DNA of 52,041 nucleotides, from the NCBI GenBank assembly GCA_017537925.1, contig JAFYJW010000075.1:1-52041 (forward strand), in the 5' to 3' direction. The notes beneath the pieces were generated by a model. That model searched no databases. It was not told the origin of the DNA and saw only the letters and a program-made list of their open reading frames with translations. Positions within the stretch are counted from its first letter, which is position 1. Each line of letters opens with the position of its first letter. The DNA is from Synergistes sp. (GTDB taxonomy: Bacteria; Synergistota; Synergistia; Synergistales; Synergistaceae). This document shows positions 542 through 45,004 of this stretch, one piece after another. Both the position numbers and the translations under genes were made by a program.

Positions 542-1624
542 TCAGGATGGCTGATGTCTTCTGTTTTTGCCGCTTTCCCGGTAATGCATGGCTTTAGCCT
601 GAAACATTTTTTTGTCGGCGATCTTTGCAAGTTCATATATGCCGACGCCCGGATGGTCAGCAGAAGAGGCATAGCCGTATGAAGTGCTGAGCTCCAGATG
701 ATTCTCCCTGCTCCAGGACTGTATGCTCGTATTATAGGCAGAAAGCAGCTCTTCCAGTTTATCTTCTGTCGTCAATACAACGAATTCATCTCCGCCTACT
801 CTGAAAACTCTTCCTTTATCTCCGAAGCACTTTTCTATACATTTTGCCGTGCCGATAATCAGTTTATCCCCGGCGTCATGCCCGCATGTATCATTGATTT
901 CTTTCAGGCCGTTTATATCGATTGCAAGAAATGACATATGCCGATCTTCCGCTTCGCCTGCGATGCGTTCCATTTCCTTTGCGTAGGCGCGTCTGTTTCC
1001 GCAGCCTGTCATAGCGTCAACCCTTGCGTTTTTTTGTTCGTGTACGATGCGTTCTGCAAGCTGAGTTTTCAGCAGCATAAAACTGACTCCCAGCACGAGC
1101 TGGAAGATAATAAAGATGCCTGTGTTTATCACAAGCCCCACACTGCCGGAGGCAAGAAAAAGCATGTATATAATGGCAAGATCCGTAATACCGGCGATGA
1201 TCACATAAACCCAGGGCAGTAAATAAAACCCCAGAGGAACTATCAGGGAAAACGTCATAAAGACCAGCGGATCGAGGGTCCCCGTTAATCTGAAATCCTG
1301 ATAAGTAACAGCACATGCCCATGCAAAAAAGAACGCGGCAAAGAGCGGATTTGCAACAGTAAACAATTTATGCTGATTTTCCATATCTTTTTTTACGTAA
1401 ACACATAATGCAAAGTACAACAGCGCAACTGTAAGAAGTGAAATGTAAAACGAACGGTATATCCATATATTCTCTCCGAAATACGGAGCGTTCATAAATG
1501 TGTATGTCAGCATACAGATCTCAAGGGATGCAATGACCCCTATCGCGATCGCGGAATACACGAACGATGAATTGTATATGCTTATGAGGACATCATTTCT
1601 GTTTCCTCCGCTGCTGTCTGTCAT
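542..1624 (-). CDS. Membrane-bound GGDEF protein (putative diguanylate cyclase)
   Basis: This 360-aa protein probably makes cyclic di-GMP from two GTP at the inner membrane. About six hydrophobic segments (residues ~20-42, 57-77, 92-106, 118-138, 140-160, 165-185) form an integral membrane sensor. A GGDEF domain follows from about residue 200, with the active-site signature VGGDEF (277-281) and the metal-binding IDIN motif around 236. The residues five positions before GGDEF are not RxxD, so the usual product-inhibition site seems absent. The ATG at 1624 follows AAGGAGAGG by five bases. It lies downstream of a second GGDEF gene in the same orientation, with a 172-bp gap. What the membrane domain senses cannot be told. 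Confidence 0.9.
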   Translation of the reverse strand: MTDSSGGNRNDVLISIYNSSFVYSAIAIGVIASLEICMLTYTFMNAPYFGENIWIYRSFYISLLTVALLYFALCVYVKKDMENQHKLFTVANPLFAAFFFAWACAVTYQDFRLTGTLDPLVFMTFSLIVPLGFYLLPWVYVIIAGITDLAIIYMLFLASGSVGLVINTGIFIIFQLVLGVSFMLLKTQLAERIVHEQKNARVDAMTGCGNRRAYAKEMERIAGEAEDRHMSFLAIDINGLKEINDTCGHDAGDKLIIGTAKCIEKCFGDKGRVFRVGGDEFVVLTTEDKLEELLSAYNTSIQSWSRENHLELSTSYGYASSADHPGVGIYELAKIADKKMFQAKAMHYRESGKNRRHQPS

Positions 1625-1796
1625 CTTTTCCTCTCCTTATTATAAAAGCGTCGTTTCTGCCGCCGGCGGCATCTGTCTGTGCCGTCAGCCGGGAAGTCTG
1701 TCTGAGAATTCTGTCCTGATGATCTTCTCTGCCGGTAAGCAGGCCCTTCTGCGGGCCGACAGGCTTTAACGACGCGGCCCGGGCAGTCCGCGCGCA

Positions 1797-3188
1797 TCAG
1801 TTGCCGCTGTCGGCGGTATCCGCTGTATGAGCAAGCTCATGAGCGCGTTTTTTCTGTGCATACATCCGTGTGTCAGCTATTTTCATCAATTCTTCAAAAC
1901 TGTTTTCATCCGTCTTTTCCGCATAGGCATAACCGACGGAAACACTGATGTTCTCTCTTTCTGTCGCCAACAGGAACCGTTCTATCCTGCTTTTGACTTC
2001 TTCTTCACTGCATTTCAGAAGCACAGCGGCGAATTCGTCTCCGCCGATGCGGTAACAGCGTCCGTTATCCTCCATCCAGAAACACTCGCGGATACAGGCG
2101 GCCGCCGTGCTGAGAAGTCTGTCGCCCGCCAGATGCCCTTTTGTGTCGTTCATACGCTTCAGGTAATTCACATCGAACACCAGCACCGCCATTGAGCCGG
2201 CATCATCGCCGGCCCCCAGCATATCGTGCTGCAGACAGTAGCGGTTCGGCAATTCTGTAAGCGCATCCGTCTCGGCGGCGGAGCGAAGAATCGCGTCCAG
2301 GTTATCGCGGCGGCTCAGCAGCGCGTTATAGGCATTGACCAGCAGCCGCATTTCCCGGAATCCGCTGCTCTGCTTCATTCTTTGGTCGGAGGCGATCTGA
2401 GCCGCAGAGACCTTCAATGGCGTTATCAGCCAACGGTAAAACAGAACAAAAGATAAGGTCATTATAATTACAATAGCGATCATTACCACCCATAACCAAA
2501 TCCGCAAATTTCTGATATGTTTTTCACATTCCGATAAAGCGAGGTCGCTTTCCTGCTGGAGAATTCTGTGACAGTTATCGACGCTTGCCGCGACAGACGC
2601 CCTGAGCAAAGAATAATCCTTGCCCGTAATCAGTCCCCGCGCATAAGCCTCGCGATCTTTTTCTGTCATGGCAAGTTCTTCTTCCGTCAGCGGAACAGCA
2701 GGGATAACGGAAAGCGCAGGAATCGGAGGCCGGCGGTAGATCGAACACATCAGCGCGATCACATGAAGCTGGGTCTCGTACATCTTTTCCGACGCCGCTG
2801 CGGCTGTGTCAATATAGGATTGTATCTCCGCACCGGCATTATGAGTTTTGAACCACTCTGCAATTTTCCGGACGCTGCGATCCATTCCAAGCTCCCTCGC
2901 ATACATAAGAAGCGGTCCTGCATTAAACTCGCCGTCTCTTCCGGTGGGCATCTTGACAAAAGCGGCGGCTGTCTCTGAGAGCGTGCTGTTGTTTGCCTGA
3001 AGTTGTGTAACATTTTGCTGGCATTCGCTGGTCTTCTGCATTATTACAGAGAATTCTCTATTGGCACGGTTAGACTCGTAAACAAGAAATATTGCAATTA
3101 TATGCAGAAGCGCAATTACCGCTGCCAGCGGCATTATAATTGAATTTGCGGAAATTCCGTCGGTTTTTATTGATTTTTTATCGTTCAC
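1797..3188 (-). CDS. Sensor GGDEF protein with periplasmic domain (putative diguanylate cyclase)
   Basis: This 463-aa protein starts at GTG 3188, preceded by AAGGAAA. It has a membrane helix at residues ~16-37, a mostly helical periplasmic domain (~40-228), a second helix at 229-251, a HAMP-like linker, and a GGDEF domain from about 295 with IGGDEF at 382-386. The catalytic motif is complete, so it should synthesise c-di-GMP in response to an extracytoplasmic signal. No RxxD inhibition site is visible before GGDEF. It stands upstream of another GGDEF protein in the same direction and diverges from the DUF554 gene. The two proteins differ entirely in sensor architecture, so they are not a recent duplication. 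Confidence 0.9.
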   Translation of the reverse strand: MNDKKSIKTDGISANSIIMPLAAVIALLHIIAIFLVYESNRANREFSVIMQKTSECQQNVTQLQANNSTLSETAAAFVKMPTGRDGEFNAGPLLMYARELGMDRSVRKIAEWFKTHNAGAEIQSYIDTAAAASEKMYETQLHVIALMCSIYRRPPIPALSVIPAVPLTEEELAMTEKDREAYARGLITGKDYSLLRASVAASVDNCHRILQQESDLALSECEKHIRNLRIWLWVVMIAIVIIMTLSFVLFYRWLITPLKVSAAQIASDQRMKQSSGFREMRLLVNAYNALLSRRDNLDAILRSAAETDALTELPNRYCLQHDMLGAGDDAGSMAVLVFDVNYLKRMNDTKGHLAGDRLLSTAAACIRECFWMEDNGRCYRIGGDEFAAVLLKCSEEEVKSRIERFLLATERENISVSVGYAYAEKTDENSFEELMKIADTRMYAQKKRAHELAHTADTADSGN

Positions 3189-31648: not shown

Positions 31649-32695
31649 ATGAAAAGATACATTATTATGACGGCCTTTGCGGCGCTGATATGCGCGCTTC
31701 TGCTGTCAAACGCAGCGGCGCTCTTCGCTGCCGATAATGTGCAGGTAAAGGAGAAAAAGGTCGTCGACCTGCCTAAGAAATACACTGAACAGATAGTGAA
31801 GGAGCACGAAAAATTCATAAAGGCCTTCGCCAATTCGGAGATGGCCCACAGGTACTACTTCAAACAGATATATGACGCGGTGAACAGGGGCAAAAAGGAA
31901 CCGACAAAAGAATCACTCAGGGCAATGGAATTCGAGCTCAAGCTGCTGGACAAGGAACTGTGCGCCTGCGCGAAAAGATACTCACAAAACATACGCGTGG
32001 TAAGGGCGGCGATGGAGGAAATGAACTACGAAGAAAGGACTCGCTTTGTCAAAGCGCTGAGCCTTATATTCGCTGCCCCCGCCTATGCCTTTGACTCATC
32101 TTCTCTTAACAGCATTGAAGCCGGCCTCAACAACATAGCCGCAGGAACCGCGAACATCGGCTACAACAACCTTGAAGATCACTACAGAGGCGTAGCGGCC
32201 AACGCAAAGATCGGGGAGATAGTGACTTCGGGCGTATGCGTCATTACGACCGCCGGGCTTACGGTAGGAGGGCTCGCGCTGGCAACGGTGGCAGCGCCTG
32301 CCGTGACCACTGTCGGCGCAAGCGCAGCGCTCTTCGTCGGCGTTACCGCCGGGCTCACAGGCGGAATGCTGGCAACAGCAGACGCGGCAATAGGCTTCAT
32401 TGATGCGGTAACCGATCAGGAGACCGATACAAAAAACCTTAAAAAGATGGCTCTGGGCTTCAGCCTGCTCAGCGTCGGATCCGGCGCGGCGGGCGTGACT
32501 TCGGCAGTTGAAACGGTAAAGCTCGCAGTCGACGTCGCAGACAGCACCAAAGACGTATGGATACCGCTTTTGAATGAAGCCGAGAATCCCAAAATGCCGG
32601 GACGCGAAGGCGTGACAGCAGTCAAAAACGCTAACGACTCCGCAAGCGCAAACAGTTCAAGCGACGGCGGCAGCGGTGGCGGCCACGGCCACTAA
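31649..32695 (+). CDS. Secreted hypothetical protein with glycine-rich hydrophobic core and Gly/His tail
   Basis: I do not recognise a family. This 348-aa protein has a signal peptide (cleavage near ALFAAD), a charged helical region (~30-125, rich in Lys/Glu with two cysteines in CACAK), and then a second hydrophobic region. Residues ~190-265 form two long Ala/Gly/Val-rich apolar stretches separated by short polar turns, suggesting a membrane-inserting hairpin. The C-terminus is low-complexity: many Ser/Asn, then GGSGGGHGH. ATG 31649 follows GGGGGAGGG. It is monocistronic with a strong terminator. Possibilities include an envelope channel, a pore-forming or colicin-like domain, or a metal-binding surface protein; none can be shown. 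Confidence 0.8.
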   Translation: MKRYIIMTAFAALICALLLSNAAALFAADNVQVKEKKVVDLPKKYTEQIVKEHEKFIKAFANSEMAHRYYFKQIYDAVNRGKKEPTKESLRAMEFELKLLDKELCACAKRYSQNIRVVRAAMEEMNYEERTRFVKALSLIFAAPAYAFDSSSLNSIEAGLNNIAAGTANIGYNNLEDHYRGVAANAKIGEIVTSGVCVITTAGLTVGGLALATVAAPAVTTVGASAALFVGVTAGLTGGMLATADAAIGFIDAVTDQETDTKNLKKMALGFSLLSVGSGAAGVTSAVETVKLAVDVADSTKDVWIPLLNEAENPKMPGREGVTAVKNANDSASANSSSDGGSGGGHGH

Positions 32696-32773: not shown

Positions 32774-32898
32774 ATCATAAACATTCAGGCGGGGTTTTCG
32801 GTTTTTTAGTTTGCGCTGCCGCCCGTACTGTGATATGCTTGAAAAAGCGAAATGAAAACCCGAATCATAATAAAAATACGAAAAAAGGAGAAGAAAAA

Positions 32899-33159
32899 AT
32901 GAACTGCTATCAGATAATGGCCGTAAGAATAACAGACCGCGGCAAAAGCGCGGTAGACGTTCAGAAGGTGCTGACAGAGTACGGATGCTACGTCCTGACT
33001 AGGCTCGGCCTGCATGATCAGTCCGTCCCCGGCACCTGCTCCCCGGCAGGGCTTCTCGTCCTTCAGCTCTGCAGCGACAGCGAAGCCTCACAGCAGCTGG
33101 AAAAGAAACTGAATATGCTCGACGGCGTGAAGGCAAAGCTCGTAGACCTCTCCGACTGA
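32899..33159 (+). CDS. TM1266-like iron-only hydrogenase system regulator
   Basis: This 86-aa protein has an ACT/ferredoxin-like fold. It matches the small TM1266 family annotated as the putative regulator of [FeFe]-hydrogenase maturation systems: MAVRITDRGKSAVDVQKVLT, GCYVLTRLGLHD and a conserved SPAGLLVLQLC strand. ATG 32899 follows AAAAAAGGAG; the in-frame extension to 32830 has no binding site. Its usual partners (hydG/hydE/hydF or hydrogenase genes) are not in this window, so the gene is isolated. The ligand and regulated genes are unknown. Confidence 0.82.
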   Translation: MNCYQIMAVRITDRGKSAVDVQKVLTEYGCYVLTRLGLHDQSVPGTCSPAGLLVLQLCSDSEASQQLEKKLNMLDGVKAKLVDLSD

Positions 33160-33192
33160 CAGGAAAAGGCCGGAAAAATAAGCTGAAAGAAG

Positions 33193-33231
33193 GAGGCCGG
33201 ACGGGAGCGTTTTGCTTTTGTCCGGCCTCTT
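33193..33231 (+). terminator. Weak terminator after the TM1266-like gene
   Basis: GAGGCCGGAC pairs with GTCCGGCCTC around a large T-rich loop. The following T-run is short (TTATC). Confidence 0.55.
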
Positions 33232-33456
33232 ATCGTCACAGTTGAAAATTATAATGTTTAAGGATTTAATATAATCAAAGAAATATTTTTTTTATCAGTA
33301 AAACAAAAATCGCTGCATATAACGGCGGAGCGCCTGAAACAACTGCGGGGATAAATTTCAGCAGTCAGGATATTTTTCAGCGCATGCAAGCCACAGAGAG
33401 AACCCGGCAGTGTCCGCGGCCGTGCACATAGTGACAGCGATGAAAGGATAAAACAT

Positions 33457-35184
33457 TTGTCTCTTTACTTACACGTTATAGGATTAATATGCATTTTTGT
33501 ACTGTCTCAGCTGACAAGAAAAAAGCAGACAGCAGAAAAGCCAATTCGTCCGGCATATCAAAAGGCTTCTTATACCGCGCCGGCAGCGGAACCGGGCCTG
33601 ATATTGGACAGCAGCCAGAGATATGCGTTAGATCTGGCAAAAAGCGGCGCAAGGCGCATCCTGATATTAGGTGCCGCGGGAACGGGAAAATCCACAGTTA
33701 TAAAAGCAATAAAAGAAACGCTGGAGGCAGCCGGGAAAACGGTCCTTCTGACGGCCCCGACCGGAATCGCGGCAATAAATATCGGCGGAGCCACCATCCA
33801 CTCACAGTTTGAGATTCCCGCTGCGATAGCGTCCGCCAGAAGCCTCAGAGACAGCCGTGTTCTCAGTATGCTTTTGAAAAACACTGACACGATAATTATC
33901 GACGAGATATCCATGGTGCGCTCCGACCTGATGGAAGCGGTGCTCAAAAGAATCGGGCAATACAACCCAAATATACAGCTTATTCTCGTGGGGGACCTGA
34001 TGCAGCTGCCGCCCGTACTTACCGAGGGTGAGACGTCTGCGTTCAAACAGGCGGGATATGACCCATCCTTCCCGTACTTCACAGACGGCGCGCGCGGCGT
34101 CACTTTCGATACGGCGATACTTACGACATGCCACCGCCAGGGAAACGGTCTTTTCCTCGACAGCCTCAACAAAATACGAACAGGGACAGATATACAGACC
34201 GCAGTAAACGCTTTCAACGCGAACTGCCGCAGGCCCGGCACAGAGCCGGAACCGCTGCTGTACCTGACCACCACGAACGAAAGCGCTTCCCGGATAAACG
34301 AAAGACGCCTTGCGGCGCTTGACGCCGAACCGCGCACATTTACCGCGGGCATAAGATACTATACGCCTTCTCACAAAACAAACGCCGAGAAAGAGTTCCC
34401 GGCGCCTGAGACCCTCACGGTAAAACCGGGGGCAAACGTTATGATAACAAAGAACATCTATCCCGCCGGCAGCAGGGGAAACATGATTCCCAACGGCGCG
34501 ATAGGGAGGATAACCGGCATATCGAACACGGCGATAGAGGTAACGCTTTTTACGGCGCGTCCCGGATACAGGATAAAAGTCACCCCCGAAACTTGGGCAA
34601 AAATACATTACATATATGACACGGAAACAAAAACGATAATGCCGCAGAAGGAGATAGAATTCTCGCAATTCCCGTTAAAACTCGCATGGGCCGTCACGAT
34701 ACACAAAAGCCAGGGGCTGACGCTGGATAATTACGCGATAGATATGGGCAAAATGCAGTTCACCGACAACCTCGCCTACGTCGCGCTGAGCCGCGGCCGG
34801 AACTTCAGCGACATTACCCTGCTTTCCCCGCTGCAGTTAAAAGACGTCAGGACGAACAGCCGGATGCTCAAATTCATTGCGGCCGTAAAAGGCAGGCAAA
34901 GAATCACGCTGGGACAGATACAGCAAATCCTTTCTCCGCCGTCTGCTGACAGCGAGAGCGTCAAACAGACCAGAGAGATCATAGAGCGTGCCATAAGCGC
35001 GGGAAAAGACATAGAATTCGATTATATAAACAACGATGGAGAAATGAGCCGCCGGCGAGTGACGCCGAATACATGCATACTGTCCGCGTCCGGCAATGAC
35101 ATACTGAAAGCCTTCTGCCATCTGCGGCACGAAGAAAGAGCTTTTATCATAAGCAAGATCATGAACATAAAACTGATTCCATAA
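33457..35184 (+). CDS. Pif1-like helicase with N-terminal membrane segment and C-terminal WYL domain
   Basis: This 575-aa protein starts at TTG 33457, eight bases after AAAGGA. Residues 4-19 form a hydrophobic helix followed by TRKKQ, suggesting a membrane anchor. A complete SF1B Pif1/RecD-type helicase follows: Walker A GAAGTGKST (72-80), motif Ia TAPTGIAAINIGGATIH, Walker B IIIDEIS (DE at 149-150), GDLMQLPPV (GD at 179-180), TIHKSQGLTLD and YVALSRGR. The last ~75 residues are WYL-like: AISAGKDIEFDYIN, a central RRRVTP strand, then FCHLRHEERAFIISKI. WYL domains sense nucleotides or ssDNA and are common in phage-defence regulators. It is monocistronic, at one end of a defence-like block. Confidence 0.85.
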   Translation: MSLYLHVIGLICIFVLSQLTRKKQTAEKPIRPAYQKASYTAPAAEPGLILDSSQRYALDLAKSGARRILILGAAGTGKSTVIKAIKETLEAAGKTVLLTAPTGIAAINIGGATIHSQFEIPAAIASARSLRDSRVLSMLLKNTDTIIIDEISMVRSDLMEAVLKRIGQYNPNIQLILVGDLMQLPPVLTEGETSAFKQAGYDPSFPYFTDGARGVTFDTAILTTCHRQGNGLFLDSLNKIRTGTDIQTAVNAFNANCRRPGTEPEPLLYLTTTNESASRINERRLAALDAEPRTFTAGIRYYTPSHKTNAEKEFPAPETLTVKPGANVMITKNIYPAGSRGNMIPNGAIGRITGISNTAIEVTLFTARPGYRIKVTPETWAKIHYIYDTETKTIMPQKEIEFSQFPLKLAWAVTIHKSQGLTLDNYAIDMGKMQFTDNLAYVALSRGRNFSDITLLSPLQLKDVRTNSRMLKFIAAVKGRQRITLGQIQQILSPPSADSESVKQTREIIERAISAGKDIEFDYINNDGEMSRRRVTPNTCILSASGNDILKAFCHLRHEERAFIISKIMNIKLIP

Positions 35185-35365
35185 ATCTGTCTGCAGCCGC
35201 GCGCTTATCTCAGAAATGTGCAGCATCAAAAAAGAGAGCAGGAAGCACCGCCTGTAATCTGAATAAGATGATGCTTAAAATCCAATAAGCCTTTGCTATA
35301 GCGGCATTTTTTCGCTATCTTACGGTTATCCGAACGTTCCGGTATTGCTGCGCACGCTGTATCCG

Positions 35366-36355
35366 CTACTTCCTGATATACCTCTGGTTCCGGCTGGTCG
35401 GCTTGTCCGGCACGGTCATTTCTGCCATGCCAAGGGCGATGGCGGGACCCATATAGTGTTTGCGGAAGGTCTCTTTTGATTTGAGGTCCAGCTTCTTCAT
35501 TATCGCAGAGGCGGTATAGGGCACGCCGTATTCCATGACGGAGAGGAGCTTCTTCACATATTCGGAGACGGCGCGCTCTTCATCCGCGTTTACAGAGATC
35601 TCGCCGAGCAGGCGATCCGTCTGTTCCAACATAAATTCGATGAATAGGTCGGAATTCCCTGCTTTGTGACATTCGGCAATAACGCGGTAGTAGTCCTCCC
35701 GGAATTTCTCTATCTGATTCTCCAGCGGGATGTACGCAAAGACCGGCTTCCATTGAGCAAGGAGCGCCGTATGCCACAGCCGCGCCATTCTGCCGTTGCC
35801 GTCGGAGAACGGATGTATGAATACGAATTCGTAATGGAAAACGGAGGACAAAATCAAAGGATGGACGGTTTCGCGCGCTTCGCCCATCCATGCAAACAGG
35901 CTTTCCATAAGCTGCGGGACGAGCCGCGCAGGCGGAGCCATGAAGATGCAGCGCTCTCCGCTGAACACGCCTTCCTCGCCTTTACGGAAAGTCCCCGCCT
36001 CGTCTACTGTGTACCGGGTCATCACCCCGTGCAGCGTCAGCAGGTCGGTTATGCTGTACGGATTTATCCCGTTCAGCATCTCATAGGCGGCATAGGCGTT
36101 CTTCACTTCCTGAATCTCTTTCCTGTCTCCGATTACGGCGCGCCCGGCAATAACATCCCGCACCTGTCCCAGGGAGAGCGAGTTCTCTTCGATTTTCAAA
36201 GATGAGTGGATAGAGCGGATTCTGTTATTCCTCCTGAGATGCGGTTTTGATTCCAGGCTGTGCAGCGCGCCTATGCGTCCGAGTTTCTCGGAGACAGATG
36301 CGACGCGGGCGAGCATCGCGTCCGTTATGCTGTATGGCGGTATATACCTTTCCAT
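35366..36355 (-). CDS. Fic family protein (putative AMPylator)
   Basis: This 329-aa Fic-domain protein transfers, by family analogy, AMP or another phosphate-containing group to a target hydroxyl. The catalytic motif is perfect: HPFSDGNGRMAR around residues 180-191. Near the N-terminus SSLKIEENSLSL resembles the autoinhibitory helix of class II Fic proteins, (S/T)xxxE(G/N), with Glu in place of Gly/Asn at the last position. The C-terminal ~70 residues look like a winged-helix domain ending RNQRYIRK, typical of Fic proteins that act on DNA-linked targets or autoregulate. The start ATG 36355 is behind GGGGG. A tandem 12-bp repeat lies just upstream. It is in the same direction as the KAP gene. 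Confidence 0.9.
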   Translation of the reverse strand: MERYIPPYSITDAMLARVASVSEKLGRIGALHSLESKPHLRRNNRIRSIHSSLKIEENSLSLGQVRDVIAGRAVIGDRKEIQEVKNAYAAYEMLNGINPYSITDLLTLHGVMTRYTVDEAGTFRKGEEGVFSGERCIFMAPPARLVPQLMESLFAWMGEARETVHPLILSSVFHYEFVFIHPFSDGNGRMARLWHTALLAQWKPVFAYIPLENQIEKFREDYYRVIAECHKAGNSDLFIEFMLEQTDRLLGEISVNADEERAVSEYVKKLLSVMEYGVPYTASAIMKKLDLKSKETFRKHYMGPAIALGMAEMTVPDKPTSRNQRYIRK

Positions 36356-36374
36356 GACGGAGCCCCCGTTTCGA

Positions 36375-36398
36375 CTTGCGTATTATCTTGCGTATTAT
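36375..36398 (-). repeat. Tandem 12-bp repeat upstream of fic, possible operator
   Basis: Two perfect copies of CTTGCGTATTAT lie head to tail (minus-strand reading: ATAATACGCAAG twice), with a partial third start (CTTA). It is 20-43 bp before the Fic start codon, where promoter elements are expected. This is a plausible binding site for the Fic protein's own C-terminal winged-helix domain. Confidence 0.5.
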
Positions 36399-36490
36399 CT
36401 TAACACATTACCCGGGGCAGAAGGCATTTTCCCGGACTGCGCGCAGCGTCCGGCCTATAAATACCATCCGCGGCGCAGGAAGAGGCGGGG

Positions 36491-39145
36491 CTACAGGTCG
36501 AAGTGGAATATTTCAGGACGTATTACGGCGCCGCGTCCGTCGCTTTCCCTGTTCAACTTCTCCCTGCCTTTGTAGATTTCCAGCACCAGCTTTTCAGATT
36601 CGGTTTCAGCCGGACGTTTACCTAATAACTCGTCCAGCTTGGACGTCAGATCTATGCCTTTACTATTGTTCAGCAGCAGGTTATAAATATCGGACGGAAT
36701 AGAGTAACTAAAACCTCCGCCTATTTCGTAAGATACGAAATCGCCAAGTATCCTGTATATACTATCCTCGGCAGCAATATCTAATATATATCCGCGCAAT
36801 GTGTCCGGGACATCTTTACAAAACAATCTCAGCCCATGGATATTATGGAAATGATAATGTTCGTCTGCATATAAATTAATTTTTTCTTTCGGGTTTTCGC
36901 CAACGACAGATTTACACATATTTTCATAGCAGAGAGAAATACGCTCAGATACAGTTCCTTTGCCGTCCGTTTGTTTCAGATAATCCACTAATCGCGATAC
37001 TACCTCCAGCTTTGAATACGACCGCACCGCAAGCTCCGCAAATTCATCGAGCGACTTTTCATCTACTTTCAATAAAAGTTCTGATAGATACAAGACTGCT
37101 TTGCGGCGCGGCGAAGAAAAGCATCCGTCTGGATCGTCGCTTAGCTGATACACTGAGACAAACAGCATTTTAGCGATGAACGAAGCTTTATCTTTTGATA
37201 TATCTTCGGTAAAGAGACGAAAAAGGCGGATCCAGATATCTTGCAAATAGGAGTTCAGCGGTCTGATACTATCCTCAAAAAGGCCGGATGCTGTATCTAT
37301 ATCAATATCCTCGCTGATTTTACTTACAAAGTCTAACACATTGTTTTTTATCGTTATATATTCGTTACTGTCATACGAAAAATAGAGTTCAAAGAACCTG
37401 GCGCTGCAAATACGCGCGTTTTTCGCAACCTCACTGTCGTTATTCTTATGTCCGAAAACCTTTGCTGAATCGTCATTCTTTTGTAAAGTATCAGGGAACA
37501 GCCATCTTAGAATCCCCATGTAACGAGCATTTTTTGTGTCCTGCTCTATCTCTGCGACGAATTCATTGTGACACTTGATGAAGCTTGCTTCATTGATCTT
37601 AGCGGCATAAACGCTTATATCGCAATCTATATCATGCGAGACTAGGAACTGTTTGTTGTTATGCAGTTTCTGATACAACTCATTGTTCGAATACTTGATA
37701 TATTCTATAGCCAGCAGGTCCGGCTTGTACAAATGCTCTCCCTGGGATATCGCCGTATATAGCGAGGAATTGACGAACCGCTTGAACTCTCTTACGTTGG
37801 CGATAGACGAGCAGATATGCGATATCAACGTCCTGTAGTCCTTGTTATCGCAGGATTCACCGTAAGCGGAAAGGATGTTGTATAAACAGGTCTGGTAGAC
37901 ATATTTCATAGAGGAAGAAGGCACGTCTGCCTTTATCTTCATTTGGACGATTTTCTCTATAAATTTAGGATCGACATTCAGCCCGTCGGACAGGATTTTG
38001 GATAGCTGGACAGGGTCGTAAGACAACACATAAATCGTCTTCTTCAAGTCCAGAACAACGCTTAAAATCCTGAATAGGAAAATGACGTTTTCGGGCAGCG
38101 CCCTGTCAACGTCGTCGATGAAGAATACTATGACCTTGTCGCTGCATTCCAGGTATCTGTTTATATCGTCCTTTATATCCTGCACTGCACCGCTCAACTT
38201 ACGAGGCATATCCAGCAACGCGCCAACGCAGCTCGTAACGTCGTTTTTCGACAGCAGCTCGCTGATCGCCGCGATCGTCCTTCTGCTGTGCGAAACGCTG
38301 TAATGTATTCCGGAATTTTTCAGTATGGCGTCGAACATCCCAAGCAGGAACGTTTCATTATCGCTGTAAAGCCATGGGTTGAAGCTGTCGATTATAACGT
38401 AGTCCTGCCCTGCTGTAACGTTTCCCAGTTCTTTAAGCATGCTTTTTACTATGTTGATTATCGTGCTCTTGCCGCTGCCCCATTCGCCTTCCAGCCCGAT
38501 GACGAAAGACGACTGCGGCCTGTAGTGCGTAATGGCTCCGAACAAACTGGCTATGATATGCTTCCTATTTAATAAATCATAGTCCGCAGCTTTGTCCGAC
38601 AATAATATTGGATGGGCTGTTTTCGGCTTCGGGTCCGTTTTTTGCTTGTTTATTACGTTTTCATATATATCTTTCAGGTCATAGAAGTTCGCATTATACC
38701 GTGTCGTCCGTTCCAATGCGTCATGGTAATACGCTATCCTGTGCAATGCGACGATAAAGACCACGCCGCCTGCTGTTATCAAACTCAGCAGCCACCATGG
38801 ACAATCTGATCGCAGCAGCGACACGGTTACGCAGGCCGACAGAGAAACGCAAACGATGTAAAAATACTGGTCTTTCGCATAGTCCAACGACACTGAAAGT
38901 CTTTTCCAAAGGTACTTGCTGGGCAATGCGATGACATACAATATACATAAAGCGCACGCTACGTAAAACAGCGGCTGCGGACCAGAAATATCAATTTGCC
39001 GGGCGTGTATAAATCTTGAAAATACGCCTGAAAAATCAAGAAAGCTAAAAAACGCAAGACATACCAATATTAGAGGATACGTATATCTGCGTACCCTGAA
39101 TACTTCACTAAAATATTCCTTGGCATGCTGCAAATATTCCGACAC
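36491..39145 (-). CDS. KAP family P-loop NTPase, membrane-anchored
   Basis: This 884-aa KAP-type STAND-like NTPase starts at GTG 39145, with AAGGA ten bases upstream. Four membrane helices occupy residues ~23-41, 58-75, 96-112 and 117-135. The KAP ATPase follows: Walker A GEWGSGKST (220-228), the family-typical DSFNPWLY soon after, and Walker B IVFFIDDVDRA (Asp 344, 345, 347). The C-terminal ~450 residues are helical and unrecognised. KAP NTPases include the F-plasmid PifA phage-exclusion protein and several defence-island genes. The stop of the type ISP enzyme lies 34 bp upstream, so both are probably one transcript. The gene is visibly more AT-rich than its surroundings, a sign of transfer. 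Confidence 0.88.
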   Translation of the reverse strand: MSEYLQHAKEYFSEVFRVRRYTYPLILVCLAFFSFLDFSGVFSRFIHARQIDISGPQPLFYVACALCILYVIALPSKYLWKRLSVSLDYAKDQYFYIVCVSLSACVTVSLLRSDCPWWLLSLITAGGVVFIVALHRIAYYHDALERTTRYNANFYDLKDIYENVINKQKTDPKPKTAHPILLSDKAADYDLLNRKHIIASLFGAITHYRPQSSFVIGLEGEWGSGKSTIINIVKSMLKELGNVTAGQDYVIIDSFNPWLYSDNETFLLGMFDAILKNSGIHYSVSHSRRTIAAISELLSKNDVTSCVGALLDMPRKLSGAVQDIKDDINRYLECSDKVIVFFIDDVDRALPENVIFLFRILSVVLDLKKTIYVLSYDPVQLSKILSDGLNVDPKFIEKIVQMKIKADVPSSSMKYVYQTCLYNILSAYGESCDNKDYRTLISHICSSIANVREFKRFVNSSLYTAISQGEHLYKPDLLAIEYIKYSNNELYQKLHNNKQFLVSHDIDCDISVYAAKINEASFIKCHNEFVAEIEQDTKNARYMGILRWLFPDTLQKNDDSAKVFGHKNNDSEVAKNARICSARFFELYFSYDSNEYITIKNNVLDFVSKISEDIDIDTASGLFEDSIRPLNSYLQDIWIRLFRLFTEDISKDKASFIAKMLFVSVYQLSDDPDGCFSSPRRKAVLYLSELLLKVDEKSLDEFAELAVRSYSKLEVVSRLVDYLKQTDGKGTVSERISLCYENMCKSVVGENPKEKINLYADEHYHFHNIHGLRLFCKDVPDTLRGYILDIAAEDSIYRILGDFVSYEIGGGFSYSIPSDIYNLLLNNSKGIDLTSKLDELLGKRPAETESEKLVLEIYKGREKLNRESDGRGAVIRPEIFHFDL

Positions 39146-39179
39146 GGCGCCGCGTCCTTCTTTCGTCCCGCTTTGTGGC

Positions 39180-42100
39180 TCAGTCTGCGTCCAGCGGATG
39201 GATCTCGAGCGGCGGGAGGGATCTCACTATCTTCATCGTCTCAAGGCTGACTGTGATGACTTTCAGCACGAGGTCGAGCGGGTAGTGCGGGCTGCCGTGC
39301 TCTGTTCCCCATTGGTTGAAATCGTTCACTATCCCCGTCTCTTTGTCCGTCTTGACGCAGGCGCGCTCCACGACCCAGTCGAGCGCGGATTTTTTGTTGA
39401 CTACGTATTCCTGCGCTTCGAGCGGGATTTCCGTTATCGTTATGTTTTCGTTGTAAATCAGCGTCGTCTTGTCCTTCGCCGCGTTGCCGGTCTTTCCTGG
39501 GATCTTGCCGTATTTCATCTGGGTCACGCGGAAGTTGCCGCTCTCTTCGCCCGTTATCTTCACGCCCGCGTAGGCCGGCGCGCTTTCGTAGTTTACGTGA
39601 AGCTCGCCGAGCCTGCGCCCCGCGTCGCGGAAAGCGGCAAACTGTCCGTATGTAGCTGCGCGCGGGATGCGCGGCAGCTCTTTCATAAGGTTGTTCGCGT
39701 AGCGTTCCCGGTAGTCCACGGAATGGAGGATGCCGTAGATATAGTAGAAAAGGTCGTCCGCCGTTATCTTTTCGCCGTACGCTTCAGAGAAATGGCGGAG
39801 CGCGGCGTCTGAGATTGCGTCTATTCTCTGCGTTCCGAACATCGCGTCCTGTGTGTAGATGTAGCGCGGGAAACACTGCGCATCACCGTTGAAGTGCAAG
39901 TCTGCAATGACGTTAGTCATAAGGCAGATATTTCCTACATCATTGCAGTTTTGGTTTATCGTAATAATCAAATTCCGACTATCATTATTTGGGAAAAGTT
40001 GCGGCATCTGGTAAACACAGTTATTCCAAAATTTTTGAATCCTATCGTAGTATAAACATTGCTTGAAAAACGGCCTGTAACATGACTCTACAATTAGCAT
40101 CTGATTAAACGGCGCCGCCATCCTGCCGCTAGCCACACCTTTTTTTTGCGGTCTGTCCCATTTCATTTTTTGGGGATCTAAATCATACTTGTAATCTTCC
40201 CTTGTCGCTGCGAGCTTTACTTGCTCATTATAGAAATTTATGGAACTGTTCATATTCTTTTTAACGGAAGAACGACTTGCATTATATGCCCAAACATCTC
40301 TACTTGTATAAATTCCAAGGGAATAATTATAGAATATACCATTAGCATTACCGGATTTACCATTTACAGAAATAAGATTATCAAAAGAATCATCTCTAAG
40401 ATTAAACCAGTCGCCGTGCGTGTCGGGCGTTATTTCCTGCCATTCCATTTCGGCTATCGAACGGCTGCGCTTGACTTCCGCCAGTTTTTCTTCGCGCGTC
40501 AGGTAGTCGTCTACGGCGTGGAAGTATACTTTGCCCTTTTCGGCGGAATTGCTGTTTTTTATGAGGATCGTTATCGCTATCGGCGCGCGGCTTCCGGCTC
40601 CAAAGACGTTGCCCTTTTCTCTTTGACGGCGTTCTCCTGAAGTATTTGCATTCCCTTTCAGATGATAAATATATATCGAGCTGAATTCTTCCGCCATGCA
40701 TTTCCTCATGCCGTCGGCGCTGTTGGATTCCAGCCAGCCCGCGTTCGTCACGAAGCCTATTATTCCGCCGCCCGCAGCCTCTATGCGGTCGGCGGCCCAG
40801 CGGTAGGCTTTTATGTAAGAATCATGTATTGACTTTTGCTGTTGAGCGTCACCTTTTTCACCATAAGTAGATTTAATTCTATCTCGTAATTCAGGGTAAA
40901 GTTCATTGGCGTTGTCGTCGTTCTGCGAATCCTGGCCGACGGAATATGGCGGGTTGCCTATTATTACTTTTATGTCCAGACCGTCCTCTTTTACGCGGCG
41001 CGCCTCGTTGTCTTTCAGCTCGGTTTTGAATACGTCTTCCTGCCGCCCGCGCGATTTGAAGGTGTCCGTCCATATCATTACGTTGTTCGGCTCGTATTCG
41101 CTTTCCGGCATGAGGTCGCGGTAGACGGATTCGACGTTGACTGAGGCGATGTAGTAGGCAAGCGGAACTATTTCGTTCGCGTGGAGGTCGTTTTTATATT
41201 TGTAGGGCAGGCTATCTTTTTCTATAAGGCCGCTCTGCATCATGCGCGTTATGAACGTCCCCGTGCCTGTGAAGGGGTCTAATATATGCACGCCTTTGTC
41301 GCTTACCGATGCGCCGAATTCTTTTTTCAGCACTTCCGCGACGGAGCTGTTTATGAAGTCCACTATTTCGACGGGGGTGTAGACTATGCCGAGCTTGTCC
41401 TGCATTTTGGGGAATGCTTTTTTGAAGAATTTGTCGAAGAGCTCGACTATGAGCACCTGGCGGGCCGCGGCGCTGCGTATGCCGCGGACTCGGGCGCGCA
41501 CTTCACCGTAGAAGGCGGAGAGCAGGGTCTCAGTCTTGCGCGTCACGCCTTTGTCCAGGGTTTCCATCATCGCGGTCATGGCTTTCGCTATGGGGTTGCG
41601 TTCGGAGAAGCGGTATTCCTGCGTGTCGAAGAGCGCGTCGAGCACGGGCTTTATTACGACGTGCTGCGCAAGCATTTCTATGACTTCGTCGCGGCTTATC
41701 CCGTCGTTGAGTGTGGCGCGCAGCTCTTTTTCGTAGCGCTCAAGGGCGTTCTGCGCCTCTCCGCCGGCATCTTTCGCTATCGCGTCGTTGATGTGCCCGA
41801 CCTGTTCGCTGCATATATCGGCGACGTCTTCCGCCCAGTCGCCCCATTCGCGGCGGTTGCCGACTTTCTTCACCATGCGGGCTTTTATTTCTTCTTCGAG
41901 CACGGCGTTCTGCCCGAATTCGAACTCAAGGCGGCCCTGTCCTTCGTGTTCCCGATAGCCGCCCTTCTTCGGGAGTCTCCCGCCGCTTCCGGCGCCTTCG
42001 CGTCCGGACCGGCGTTTGATCTCTACGTTCGACAGGCAGACGACGTCGACTTTTTCCGGGTTCACCCTGCCGAGCTGCCCGTCTACCGCGTCCGCGCCGA

Positions 42101-44123
42101 AGCGGGAATCTATGGATTTGAGCGCCCGGAGTATCTGCCACACTACTTCGAAGTCTTTGTTGTTGTCCAATGTGAGCGCCGGGTCTACGCCGGAGGGCGT
42201 GAGGACCGGGATTATTACGTAGCCTTTCTTCTTTCCCGGGGCGGTGCGCATTACGCGCCCCACCGTCTGGACTACGTCTACCTGCGATCTGCGCGGCGTG
42301 AGGAAGACGACCGCGTCGAGCGCGGGTACGTCCACGCCTTCCGAGAGGCAGCGGACGTTGAAGAGTATTTTGCATACGTTGTCTTCCGGTTCTTCTTTGA
42401 GCCAGGCGAGCAGCGCCTTTTTCTCGACGGCGTCCATCGTGCCGTCTATGTGCCGCACGTCGCAGGAGAGCGAGTCCGCGCGGCCAAGCGCTTCGTCAGG
42501 CGCAGCTTTGCCGCGGAGGACTTTTTGCCTGAAGCGCGAGATCACCTCGTTGAAATTGTCGCGGTAGGCTTTCGACGATACTTTGTCTTCTTTGGGTTCT
42601 ATTATCTGCGCGAAGGCTACGGCGCGCTTCATCGCGGAGGCGTCCGCTTCTTCGTATTTTTTCCCGACCGCGTCTTTCAGCCCGTATTTCGCAAGCGCGC
42701 GCCATGTGCCGACTATTTTCGCCGCGTCGCTTAAGTTTATGCCTCCGGCCGGCGTGTCGAATATGTTGAATGCGTCGCCCGCGAGTTTTTCGTCTACCGT
42801 AAGCACTACGACTTTGTAGTCCACCAGGCATCCGTAGCCTACGGCCTGCGCGAAGCTGAGTTCGTAGAATGACGGGCCGTAGATCTCTTCGTCGTCCATG
42901 CAGTAGAGGACTATTTCGCCGCGTTCGCGCTGCCCCTTCGGGGCCGTCCCGTATATTTTTGGCGTGGCGGTCATGTAGAGGCGTTTGTCCGCCCGTATGA
43001 ATTCCTGGCTGTGTACGCGGGTGAATGCGTTTTCTTCTTCGTTCACGTAGAAGCCGCCCGCCGTCCGGTGCGCTTCGTCGCAGATTATCAGAGAGAAATC
43101 CGGCATGGAGTATCGCTTCTGGGCGTCGCTTATCACCTGTATGGACTGGTATGTGCTGAAGATGACCGTCATTTCGCCCGGCCTGCCGTGCGTCTCTTTT
43201 ATCTTTCCGGCAAGCGATGCCGCGTCCGTCGTCGCCGGATATGAAAGTTCGTCTATCGCAGTTATTTCGTCTATGTCTTCGCCGTCGGCTTTTCCTATTT
43301 TCGAGTCGGAGCATACGGCAAAGGCGTTGATGCGGAAAGCGCTCTGCTGTTTCCAGTCGGTCAATGTCTGCGAGAGCAGATAGAGCGACGGCACGAGGAA
43401 GAGCACGAGCGAACCGGGGCCGGCCGCAGACGGGTCTTCCGCAATTTTGAGCGCTGTGAAGGTCTTGCCGGATCCGCAGGCCATTACCAGCTTGCCGCGC
43501 CTGTGCGTCTTGAAGCCCTCCAGCACCGCGTCTATCGCCTCCTGCTGATAGGGGCGCGGCCTGCGTTTCGGTATGTCCGCCGAGTTGCATTTCATGTATT
43601 CGCGCCAGTCTATGCGCGAGGCCGCCATGTCTTCGCGCGTTATGAGCATAACGGGAGGAGTGAAGTTTTGCAGCTCCGCGCGGACGTTGTCCGTCCATGC
43701 GTCGTTCGTCGCGACAATGAGGCGCGCCGTGAAATCGGGGGTGTTTGAGGCCGCTACGAAGGAATCTATGCCGCTCTTGCCTACGGTCGCACCGGGCGCG
43801 TAGAATTTGCACTGTATCGCGGTGAAGCCGTTTCCGTCCGCATTCTCCGCCACCAGGTCTATGCCGATGTCCCTTTTGCCGGACAACATGCTGCGCTCCG
43901 CCGCCCATTCTTTATATGTCTGGACTTTTGAATAGAGGTCTTTGTATGACGGCTCCCGCGTAAGGTATTCTTTGACGAGCGTCTCAAAGCGCGTCCCCTT
44001 GTCGCGCTCTGTCATCGTCGCGCTGCTGATTATCTTAAGCAAGTCATAGAACGCCTGCGCGTTCTGCGCTTCGACCTCCATTTCCTGTGCGTATGCTGCC
44101 TGCGGCTCTTTCAGGTTTTCCAT
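39180..44123 (-). CDS. Single-chain type ISP restriction-modification enzyme
   Basis: This 1647-aa protein combines nuclease, translocase, methyltransferase and target recognition, as in LlaGI/LlaBIII. The N-terminal Mrr-like nuclease shows Glu47, Asp89 and Q104-x-K106 (GIDLV ... AIQCK). The SF2 helicase has GSGKT (~218) and DEAH (~349). The adenine methyltransferase has motif I DPFTGTGTF (~951) and motif IV NPPYSV (~1054). The C-terminal target-recognition part spans about 1230-1640. All catalytic motifs are intact and the frame is unbroken. The start ATG 44123 follows GGGGGAG. The stretch 39880-40420 is markedly AT-richer than the rest. It probably cleaves unmethylated phage DNA at a short asymmetric site. 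It lies just downstream of tRNA-Thr's flank. Confidence 0.93.
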   Translation of the reverse strand: MENLKEPQAAYAQEMEVEAQNAQAFYDLLKIISSATMTERDKGTRFETLVKEYLTREPSYKDLYSKVQTYKEWAAERSMLSGKRDIGIDLVAENADGNGFTAIQCKFYAPGATVGKSGIDSFVAASNTPDFTARLIVATNDAWTDNVRAELQNFTPPVMLITREDMAASRIDWREYMKCNSADIPKRRPRPYQQEAIDAVLEGFKTHRRGKLVMACGSGKTFTALKIAEDPSAAGPGSLVLFLVPSLYLLSQTLTDWKQQSAFRINAFAVCSDSKIGKADGEDIDEITAIDELSYPATTDAASLAGKIKETHGRPGEMTVIFSTYQSIQVISDAQKRYSMPDFSLIICDEAHRTAGGFYVNEEENAFTRVHSQEFIRADKRLYMTATPKIYGTAPKGQRERGEIVLYCMDDEEIYGPSFYELSFAQAVGYGCLVDYKVVVLTVDEKLAGDAFNIFDTPAGGINLSDAAKIVGTWRALAKYGLKDAVGKKYEEADASAMKRAVAFAQIIEPKEDKVSSKAYRDNFNEVISRFRQKVLRGKAAPDEALGRADSLSCDVRHIDGTMDAVEKKALLAWLKEEPEDNVCKILFNVRCLSEGVDVPALDAVVFLTPRRSQVDVVQTVGRVMRTAPGKKKGYVIIPVLTPSGVDPALTLDNNKDFEVVWQILRALKSIDSRFGADAVDGQLGRVNPEKVDVVCLSNVEIKRRSGREGAGSGGRLPKKGGYREHEGQGRLEFEFGQNAVLEEEIKARMVKKVGNRREWGDWAEDVADICSEQVGHINDAIAKDAGGEAQNALERYEKELRATLNDGISRDEVIEMLAQHVVIKPVLDALFDTQEYRFSERNPIAKAMTAMMETLDKGVTRKTETLLSAFYGEVRARVRGIRSAAARQVLIVELFDKFFKKAFPKMQDKLGIVYTPVEIVDFINSSVAEVLKKEFGASVSDKGVHILDPFTGTGTFITRMMQSGLIEKDSLPYKYKNDLHANEIVPLAYYIASVNVESVYRDLMPESEYEPNNVMIWTDTFKSRGRQEDVFKTELKDNEARRVKEDGLDIKVIIGNPPYSVGQDSQNDDNANELYPELRDRIKSTYGEKGDAQQQKSIHDSYIKAYRWAADRIEAAGGGIIGFVTNAGWLESNSADGMRKCMAEEFSSIYIYHLKGNANTSGERRQREKGNVFGAGSRAPIAITILIKNSNSAEKGKVYFHAVDDYLTREEKLAEVKRSRSIAEMEWQEITPDTHGDWFNLRDDSFDNLISVNGKSGNANGIFYNYSLGIYTSRDVWAYNASRSSVKKNMNSSINFYNEQVKLAATREDYKYDLDPQKMKWDRPQKKGVASGRMAAPFNQMLIVESCYRPFFKQCLYYDRIQKFWNNCVYQMPQLFPNNDSRNLIITINQNCNDVGNICLMTNVIADLHFNGDAQCFPRYIYTQDAMFGTQRIDAISDAALRHFSEAYGEKITADDLFYYIYGILHSVDYRERYANNLMKELPRIPRAATYGQFAAFRDAGRRLGELHVNYESAPAYAGVKITGEESGNFRVTQMKYGKIPGKTGNAAKDKTTLIYNENITITEIPLEAQEYVVNKKSALDWVVERACVKTDKETGIVNDFNQWGTEHGSPHYPLDLVLKVITVSLETMKIVRSLPPLEIHPLDAD

Positions 44124-44225
44124 CGCGTCTCCCCCAAACGTATGCGTGCGGCTCTTTTCTCATTATAAAAGCCGGGCCGGTAAAATGGAACAATTACAAG
44201 GATGTTCGGGGGCAGAAAAGATCAC

Positions 44226-44264
44226 AAAATAAAAAGGGCTTTCGGGAACATCCCGAAAACCCTT
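44226..44264 (-). terminator. tRNA-Thr terminator
   Basis: On the minus strand AGGGTTTTCGGGA pairs with TCCCGAAAGCCCT around a three-base loop and runs into TTTTTATTTT. It separates the tRNA from the type ISP gene. Confidence 0.85.
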
Positions 44265-44272
44265 GGATTTTC

Positions 44273-44348
44273 TGGAGCCGGCGAGGGGATTCGAACCTCC
44301 GACCTGCTGATTACAAGTCAGCTGCTCTACCAGCTGAGCTACACCGGC
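44273..44348 (-). tRNA. tRNA-Thr (anticodon TGT)
   Basis: A 76-nt cloverleaf with encoded CCA. The acceptor stem GCCGGTG pairs with CGCCGGC, the D arm reads GTAGCTCAGCTGGTAGAGC, the anticodon loop CTTGTAA gives TGT, and the T arm has GGTTCGAATCC. Confidence 0.97.
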
Positions 44349-44373: not shown

Positions 44374-44401
44374 ATTATACATTATATTCTTGGCTTGTCA
44401 A
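44374..44401 (-). promoter_or_regulatory. tRNA-Thr promoter (TTGACA - 16 bp - TATAAT)
   Basis: Both hexamers are perfect on the minus strand (TTGACA 44401-44396, TATAAT 44379-44374), about 25 bp before the tRNA 5' end. Confidence 0.85.
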
Positions 44402-44428: not shown

Positions 44429-45004
44429 TCAGAGTATCTCCATATGGCACATCTTCATCGTCTGAAGCGCGGCTTCGTGGCTTTCGCGCGTCACGCCGGC
44501 GCAGCAGTCCGAAAAGACATTGATGCGGCTCTCCGGGAAATTTGCTTTAAGGATCATCGCGTTGGATACGACGCATATGTCCGTGCAGAGCCCCATAATA
44601 TGAAAGACCAGGTCTTTTTCCGCAAAGGGCCGGCCCGCCGCTACGCACTGCTTTTCCGCAATCTCCCGGACTGCCTGCGGCAGCGACGTCGAGCCGAATG
44701 TCCTTTTTTCTATTACCGCAGCCCCCGCGGCATACTCTTTAAGCTCATCGATTATATCCGCGCCCCATGTACCGCGTATGCAGTGCGGCACCGGAAGATG
44801 CCTGCCTTCGTTGGTGTCGGCGTAATCCTCGCCGTGCGTGTCTTTTGTGAATATCAGCCGTTCTTTTCCCTGTTCACGGATAAATGAGGCTATCTTTTCC
44901 GCGACGTTCGGGACGACGGCGCGCGCCATATCGCTGCCGAGAGCCCCGCTTACAAAGTCGTTCTGCATATCTATAACTACCATAAACTCAATGCCGTTTT
45001 CCAT
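44429..45004 (-). CDS. Isochorismatase-like cysteine hydrolase
   Basis: This 191-aa cytoplasmic hydrolase is of the isochorismatase/nicotinamidase fold. The triad is visible: Asp in VVIDMQNDF (residue ~12), a lysine in VIEKRTFGST, and the nucleophile Cys in MGLCTDICV (~139). HLPVPHCIRGTWGADI matches the subgroup of plain 'cysteine hydrolases' close to nicotinamidases. Start ATG 45004 with GGGGAG upstream. It follows the FAD oxidoreductase gene by 85 bp in the same direction. Nicotinamide deamidation for NAD salvage is the most likely role but not proven. Confidence 0.88.
   Translation of the reverse strand: MENGIEFMVVIDMQNDFVSGALGSDMARAVVPNVAEKIASFIREQGKERLIFTKDTHGEDYADTNEGRHLPVPHCIRGTWGADIIDELKEYAAGAAVIEKRTFGSTSLPQAVREIAEKQCVAAGRPFAEKDLVFHIMGLCTDICVVSNAMILKANFPESRINVFSDCCAGVTRESHEAALQTMKMCHMEIL

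Follow-up and report, generated by a model that had tools for sequence, protein, structure and literature searches.

Several described systems bear on the locus reported here. Type ISP restriction–modification (R–M) enzymes, exemplified by LlaBIII and LlaGI (PDB 4xqk and 5ffj), are five-domain, single-chain proteins that restrict DNA by translocation and head-on collision (PMC4666363). KAP P-loop NTPases linked to phage exclusion include PifA of the F plasmid and Tmn, a membrane KAP protein that blocks phages (PMC11846954). PMC10286901 reports that phage T7 escapes PifA through mutations in its genes 1.2 and 10, and a title listed there (Schmitt 1991) attributes the membrane permeability lesions of pifA cells to these two genes. 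PrrC, an anticodon nuclease, is silenced by the linked type I R–M enzyme EcoprrI and is released when this enzyme is inhibited by phage T4 (PMC2610378). Among the Pif1 helicases, the Pif1–WYL group (TePif1/DdPif1) represents an established arrangement whose WYL domain binds single-stranded DNA (PMC9964779). Here we compare these systems with a run of four genes in a Synergistes sp. genome, which we regard, with a probability of about 0.8, as a species-specific accessory block at a variable chromosomal spot, composed of independent genes that probably arrived separately.

The window, by which we mean the whole stretch of 52,041 nucleotides analysed, is contig C16 of a 1.98-Mb genome in 77 contigs. 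Only four protein genes lie between a CPF_0552 family gene (left anchor; 32830–33159, + strand; NCBIfam) and a tRNA-Thr(TGT) gene (44273–44348, − strand; ARAGORN), which has consensus −35/−10 elements upstream at 44401–44374 and adjoins a gene for an isochorismatase-family protein (right anchor; 44429–45004, − strand; Pfam). All four open reading frames are intact, and they encode a Pif1-family SF1B helicase with a C-terminal WYL domain (575 residues; 33457–35184, + strand), a Fic protein (329 residues; 35366–36355, − strand), a PifA-like KAP P-loop NTPase (884 residues; 36491–39145, − strand) and a single-chain type ISP R–M enzyme (1,647 residues; 39180–44123, − strand). The ISP, KAP and Fic genes thus run leftward, and the Pif1–WYL gene runs rightward and converges on Fic. 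The preliminary description of this DNA had named these four genes and their domains, seen no housekeeping gene among them and placed a tRNA gene beside them, all of which is borne out by the open reading frame coordinates, Pfam and ARAGORN. The left neighbours at 31649–32695 and 32830–33159 had no match in the defence library. Near the contig start, two adjacent GGDEF (diguanylate cyclase) genes occupy 542–3188.

Comparison within the genus drew on two other genomes, one of which (G048, a sister species) is contiguous at the site, and the other of which (G049) has a contig that ends at the left anchor. In G048, the left anchor, the tRNA-Thr gene and the genes beyond, including the right anchor, occur in the same relative order and in the opposite orientation, and ~55 kb of unrelated genes stand in place of the interval 33160–44266. 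Reading of the translations by eye indicated that this 55 kb holds mostly metabolic genes, together with a type I R–M operon and transposase fragments. On the left, blastn homology to G048 extends as far as the left anchor's stop codon (33160); on the right, it breaks off at 44266, 7 bases beyond the 3′ end of the tRNA. Because G048, as the one informative relative, has the same conserved flanks around different contents, the block represents accessory DNA inserted at a variable site. The four genes are also not core genes scattered through all relatives, as the KAP and Pif1–WYL genes are rare and the ISP gene is patchily distributed.

The ISP protein carries the Pfam domains Mrr_cat_2, ResIII, ISP_coupler and Type_ISP_C (7.2e-95) in this order over its 1,647 residues, and matches LlaBIII (PDB 4xqk) over its full length with 1,049 bits and the PADLOC type IIG family with 1,852 bits. 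Its single chain combines an Mrr nuclease, an SF2 helicase, a coupler, an adenine methyltransferase and a C-terminal recognition domain, and its catalytic motifs (nuclease QxK, ACGSGKT, DEAH, DPFTGTG and NPPY, read in translation) are intact. It thereby resembles LlaBIII and LlaGI in its five-domain, full-length organization and in its nuclease, helicase and methyltransferase motifs, but differs from them in its recognition region, which is divergent and low in GC. The GC content falls to 0.40 over residues 1201–1400 (39924–40523), as compared with 0.55–0.61 in most of the protein, which suggests an exchanged recognition domain, as expected for swapped target domains. By analogy with its homologues, the protein would be a complete one-protein R–M system that methylates a short asymmetric target on one of its strands, and pairs of enzymes loaded on unmodified, facing targets of incoming DNA would translocate, collide and cut, as in the LlaGI/LlaBIII mechanism. 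Such ISP genes occur as stand-alone genes on plasmids as small as 9.5 kb. In G049, a contig end (C103:1-4321, L085) that looks like part of a mobile island carries the first part of an ISP gene (46% identical over 127 residues), together with ORFs resembling an integrase and a helix-turn-helix protein; as this N-terminal piece lies near the integrase-like ORF, at a locus other than the present one, ISP genes probably travel on islands in the genus. In gut Burkholderiales (Aphodousia, Sutterella, Parasutterella and an uncultured relative; L096:1-7273, L097:3-6386, L098:7345-14995 and L099:7328-13066), an ISP gene 53–57% identical to that of the window is preceded by a serine-recombinase-like gene and by a second, divergent and inverted version of the C-terminal portion of ISP (residue ~1010 onward), and the long inverted repeats in these loci are 77–92% identical; this looks like an invertible type ISP enzyme that switches DNA specificity.

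The KAP protein matches the Pfam KAP_NTPase family (1.1e-40) and the PADLOC PifA model (9.3e-46), with no PADLOC model matching beyond PifA, PDC-S20 and QatA. Its Walker A (GEWGSGKS) and Walker B (VIVFFIDDVD) motifs are intact, giving it the KAP domain and both motifs of a PifA-type protein, and they are conserved in a 43% identical relative in the genome G015. We rejected Qat or another multi-gene KAP system, as the QatA match is weak and covers only part of the model or protein (48 bits, where the cut-off is 600) and the neighbours are ISP and Fic. Hydropathy analysis predicts four N-terminal membrane helices, which are shared with the G015 relative. The window protein is thus similar to PifA in its KAP NTPase core and to Tmn in being a KAP protein with membrane segments (PMC11846954), but differs from PifA and Tmn in having four membrane helices ahead of the P-loop domain. 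Most likely, it is an exclusion protein of the PifA type, anchored in the membrane, that would sense a phage product and then damage the membrane or halt growth; by analogy, our best guess is a membrane-acting abortive response. The gene starts with GTG preceded by AAGGA and is separated by 34 bp from the ISP gene on the same strand, with which it is probably co-transcribed. At 0.436, its GC content is lower than that of any other protein gene measured in the window. The two ends of the gene show a near-perfect direct repeat of 17 bp, identical at 16 of 17 positions (36525–36541 and 39144–39160); a repeat as good was found in 6 of 2,898 random stretch pairs, and it was picked afterwards among several genes, so that with such weak statistics it is possibly a trace of separate insertion. 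Elsewhere, too, KAP genes adjoin tRNA clusters, an arrangement like that of the window: the KAP gene of G015 (L081:10364-13176) lies ~140 bp from tRNA-Pro, and that of G063 (L190:9373-12352) lies between tRNA-Pro and tRNA-Gly. A search of viral contigs for KAP and Pif1 relatives, and of phage records for KAP, returned one distant KAP on a viral contig and nothing else. Plasmids yielded no closer members of the KAP subfamily beyond the two already known, and peptide patterns, which were too weak for the purpose, found no KAP in wider genome contigs.

Class II Fic AMP-transferases have an HxFx(D/E)GNGRxxR active site and an N-terminal inhibitory (S/T)xxxE(G/N) motif. The Fic protein of the window has the Pfam domains Fic and Fic-like_C and matches PDB 4rgl over its full length. 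Its active-site motif HPFSDGNGR is intact and fits this class, but its inhibitory motif, SLKIEE as against SLAIEN in 4rgl, differs in the last residue, which is E rather than G or N. Fic relatives are common in the family, and the own genome contains a 42% identical paralogue. By its sequence, the protein would be an AMP-transferase that stands alone and belongs to the widespread SoFic/4rgl type, which is not known to act in defence. The paralogue belongs to a second island-like stretch of the same genome (C30:45000-60000, L091; read by eye), which also contains a DNA cytosine methylase, a Vsr-like nuclease and an integrase-like ORF.

The Pif1–WYL protein combines an SF1B Pif1 core (Pfam PIF1) with a WYL domain at the C terminus (2.9e-5, which exceeds the gathering score), and its best PDB matches, 8bns and 8bnv, align over both the helicase and the WYL domain. 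Like TePif1, DdPif1 and SsPif1, it retains the WYL stretch C-x-x-R-x-x-x-R-x-F; it differs from them in an extra predicted N-terminal membrane segment at residues 2–16 (33457–33510; hydropathy), SLYLHVIGLICIFVLSQL, followed by TRKKQ. The gene has a TTG start with AAAGGA upstream, a good ribosome site, and the N-terminal hydrophobic segment was absent from the Pif1–WYL relatives compared; attachment of a Pif1 to the membrane would be out of the ordinary. In the phylum, one other genus has Pif1–WYL in six of its genomes, which favours a role in DNA maintenance over one in defence, and the protein is most likely a DNA-maintenance enzyme that would act as a 5′–3′ single-stranded DNA helicase of the TePif1/DdPif1 architecture. 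The suggestion that each of the four families has defence links is upheld by PADLOC for ISP and KAP, and not for Pif1–WYL and Fic, which received no specific defence assignment.

Whether the four genes belong together can be judged from their distribution. Among 188 genomes of the phylum, ISP occurs in 26 and Pif1–WYL in 11, and strong KAP matches occur in 5, the KAP subfamily of the window being present in 2. Within the 53 genomes of the family, Fic relatives are found in 35 and the KAP of the window in 2; ISP is found in the own genome (G000), in G031 (split over contigs) and in G049 (a piece), and Pif1 matches outside the own genome are partial, lying in longer, RecD2-sized proteins or covering the WYL part only. 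We searched 23 other ISP neighbourhoods with all four proteins (16 loci of the phylum, 4 of gut Burkholderiales and 3 contigs of G031 and G049), with flanks of up to ~10 kb, many of them ended by contig ends, and found no KAP, Fic or Pif1 relative in them at E ≤ 1e-5. No other locus with even two of the four genes side by side was found in the 188 phylum genomes or in the Burkholderiales and plasmid records; linkage outside the phylum was searched with weak peptide patterns only. In G063, which has both Pif1–WYL and a distant KAP, the two lie ~58 kb apart. The lack of co-occurrence and the differing base composition of the four genes point to a local assembly rather than a system.

These data bear on the ways in which the block might be more than a local assembly. 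That the four genes form one multi-gene antiphage system, working only as a set, is suggested by their contiguity, with no housekeeping genes between them, and by the fact that ISP and KAP, at least, are linked to defence. The absence of recurrent co-localisation in the other genomes examined largely refutes this, and the Pif1 gene lies on the opposite strand and every one of the proteins has a stand-alone relative; we therefore give such a system almost no credence. In line with the preliminary description, we found no described system of this composition. The idea of a functional set, for which that description had proposed looking for co-occurrence, finds no counterpart among the loci examined. 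A classical genomic island, inserted at the 3′ end of tRNA-Thr by a tyrosine integrase since lost, would account for the position of the block next to the tRNA, and it gains from the ISP fragment a few genes from an integrase-like ORF in the same-genus G049 and from the location of ISP or KAP just downstream of tRNA clusters in G031 and G015. Against this, the window contains no integrase gene, a 13-mer search found no second copy of the tRNA 3′ half in it, and the two ends of the block have no clear repeat in common, their best match being 11 of 14 bases, in agreement with the earlier statement that neither an integrase nor an att repeat is visible. Moreover, the terminator of tRNA-Thr (44234–44264, − strand; terminator scan) directly follows the tRNA, as related terminators do in other genera, and integration at the 3′ end would have displaced it; since it is still attached, the block lies beyond the tRNA unit and not within it. 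Entry through the tRNA is thus quite improbable, and of the proposed old island in a tRNA integration spot, what stands is an accessory block in a variable location, as seen against G048.

The ISP and KAP genes at least may work together, as they are 34 bp apart on one strand and a KAP relative in Lactobacillus intestinalis lies behind an R–M operon. The pair could constitute a two-gene unit, with the membrane KAP as guard of the restriction enzyme; freed or activated when a phage disables restriction, KAP would kill the cell or arrest its growth, in the manner of PrrC with EcoprrI. The short gap, the common direction and the AAGGA ribosome site would fit such a unit, as would the L. intestinalis gene, an independent relative with 26% overall identity in the alignment and N-terminal membrane helices, which sits 6 bp behind hsdR-hsdM-hsdS-hsdS, a complete type I operon, and thus in the same position next to another R–M type; the guard principle itself is established for PrrC (PMC2610378, PMC10286901). 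However, the nearest relative, the G015 protein with 43% identity, lacks a neighbouring R–M gene, as does that of Acetoanaerobium, so that an R–M neighbour is present in only two of the four members of the KAP subfamily seen. None of the 23 other ISP loci contains KAP, defence genes cluster anyway, and the base composition of KAP is unlike that of ISP. Among five more distant plasmid KAP relatives, a restriction endonuclease adjoins one (Trichormus), and those of Salimicrobium, Cetobacterium, Hymenobacter and Rahnella have no R–M gene within ~6 kb. The likeness to PrrC–EcoprrI is that of an NTPase gene attached to an R–M gene, an analogy only, as the window KAP is not an anticodon nuclease and its dependence on the R–M enzyme is conjecture. 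We consider the two-gene unit unlikely. Its wider form, in which four-helix membrane KAP proteins would guard R–M operons, being kept silent by intact R–M enzymes (of type ISP in the window and of type I in L. intestinalis) and let loose on the membrane once a phage blocks restriction, is by analogy a long shot, and the two occurrences of KAP behind R–M genes among four are suggestive at most. If true, it would represent a PrrC-like principle with a membrane-acting effector and a variable R–M partner, and would extend the known R–M backup mechanisms to a membrane-acting NTPase.

Collectively, the original observation of four genes in a row is confirmed; as an island it is a variable accessory block, and neither a four-gene system nor integration into the tRNA is supported. 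The finding carries little weight beyond annotation, in that it marks a plasticity spot with defence genes in a poorly studied lineage, and it serves as a caution that a row of four families with a defence flavour is not necessarily a system.
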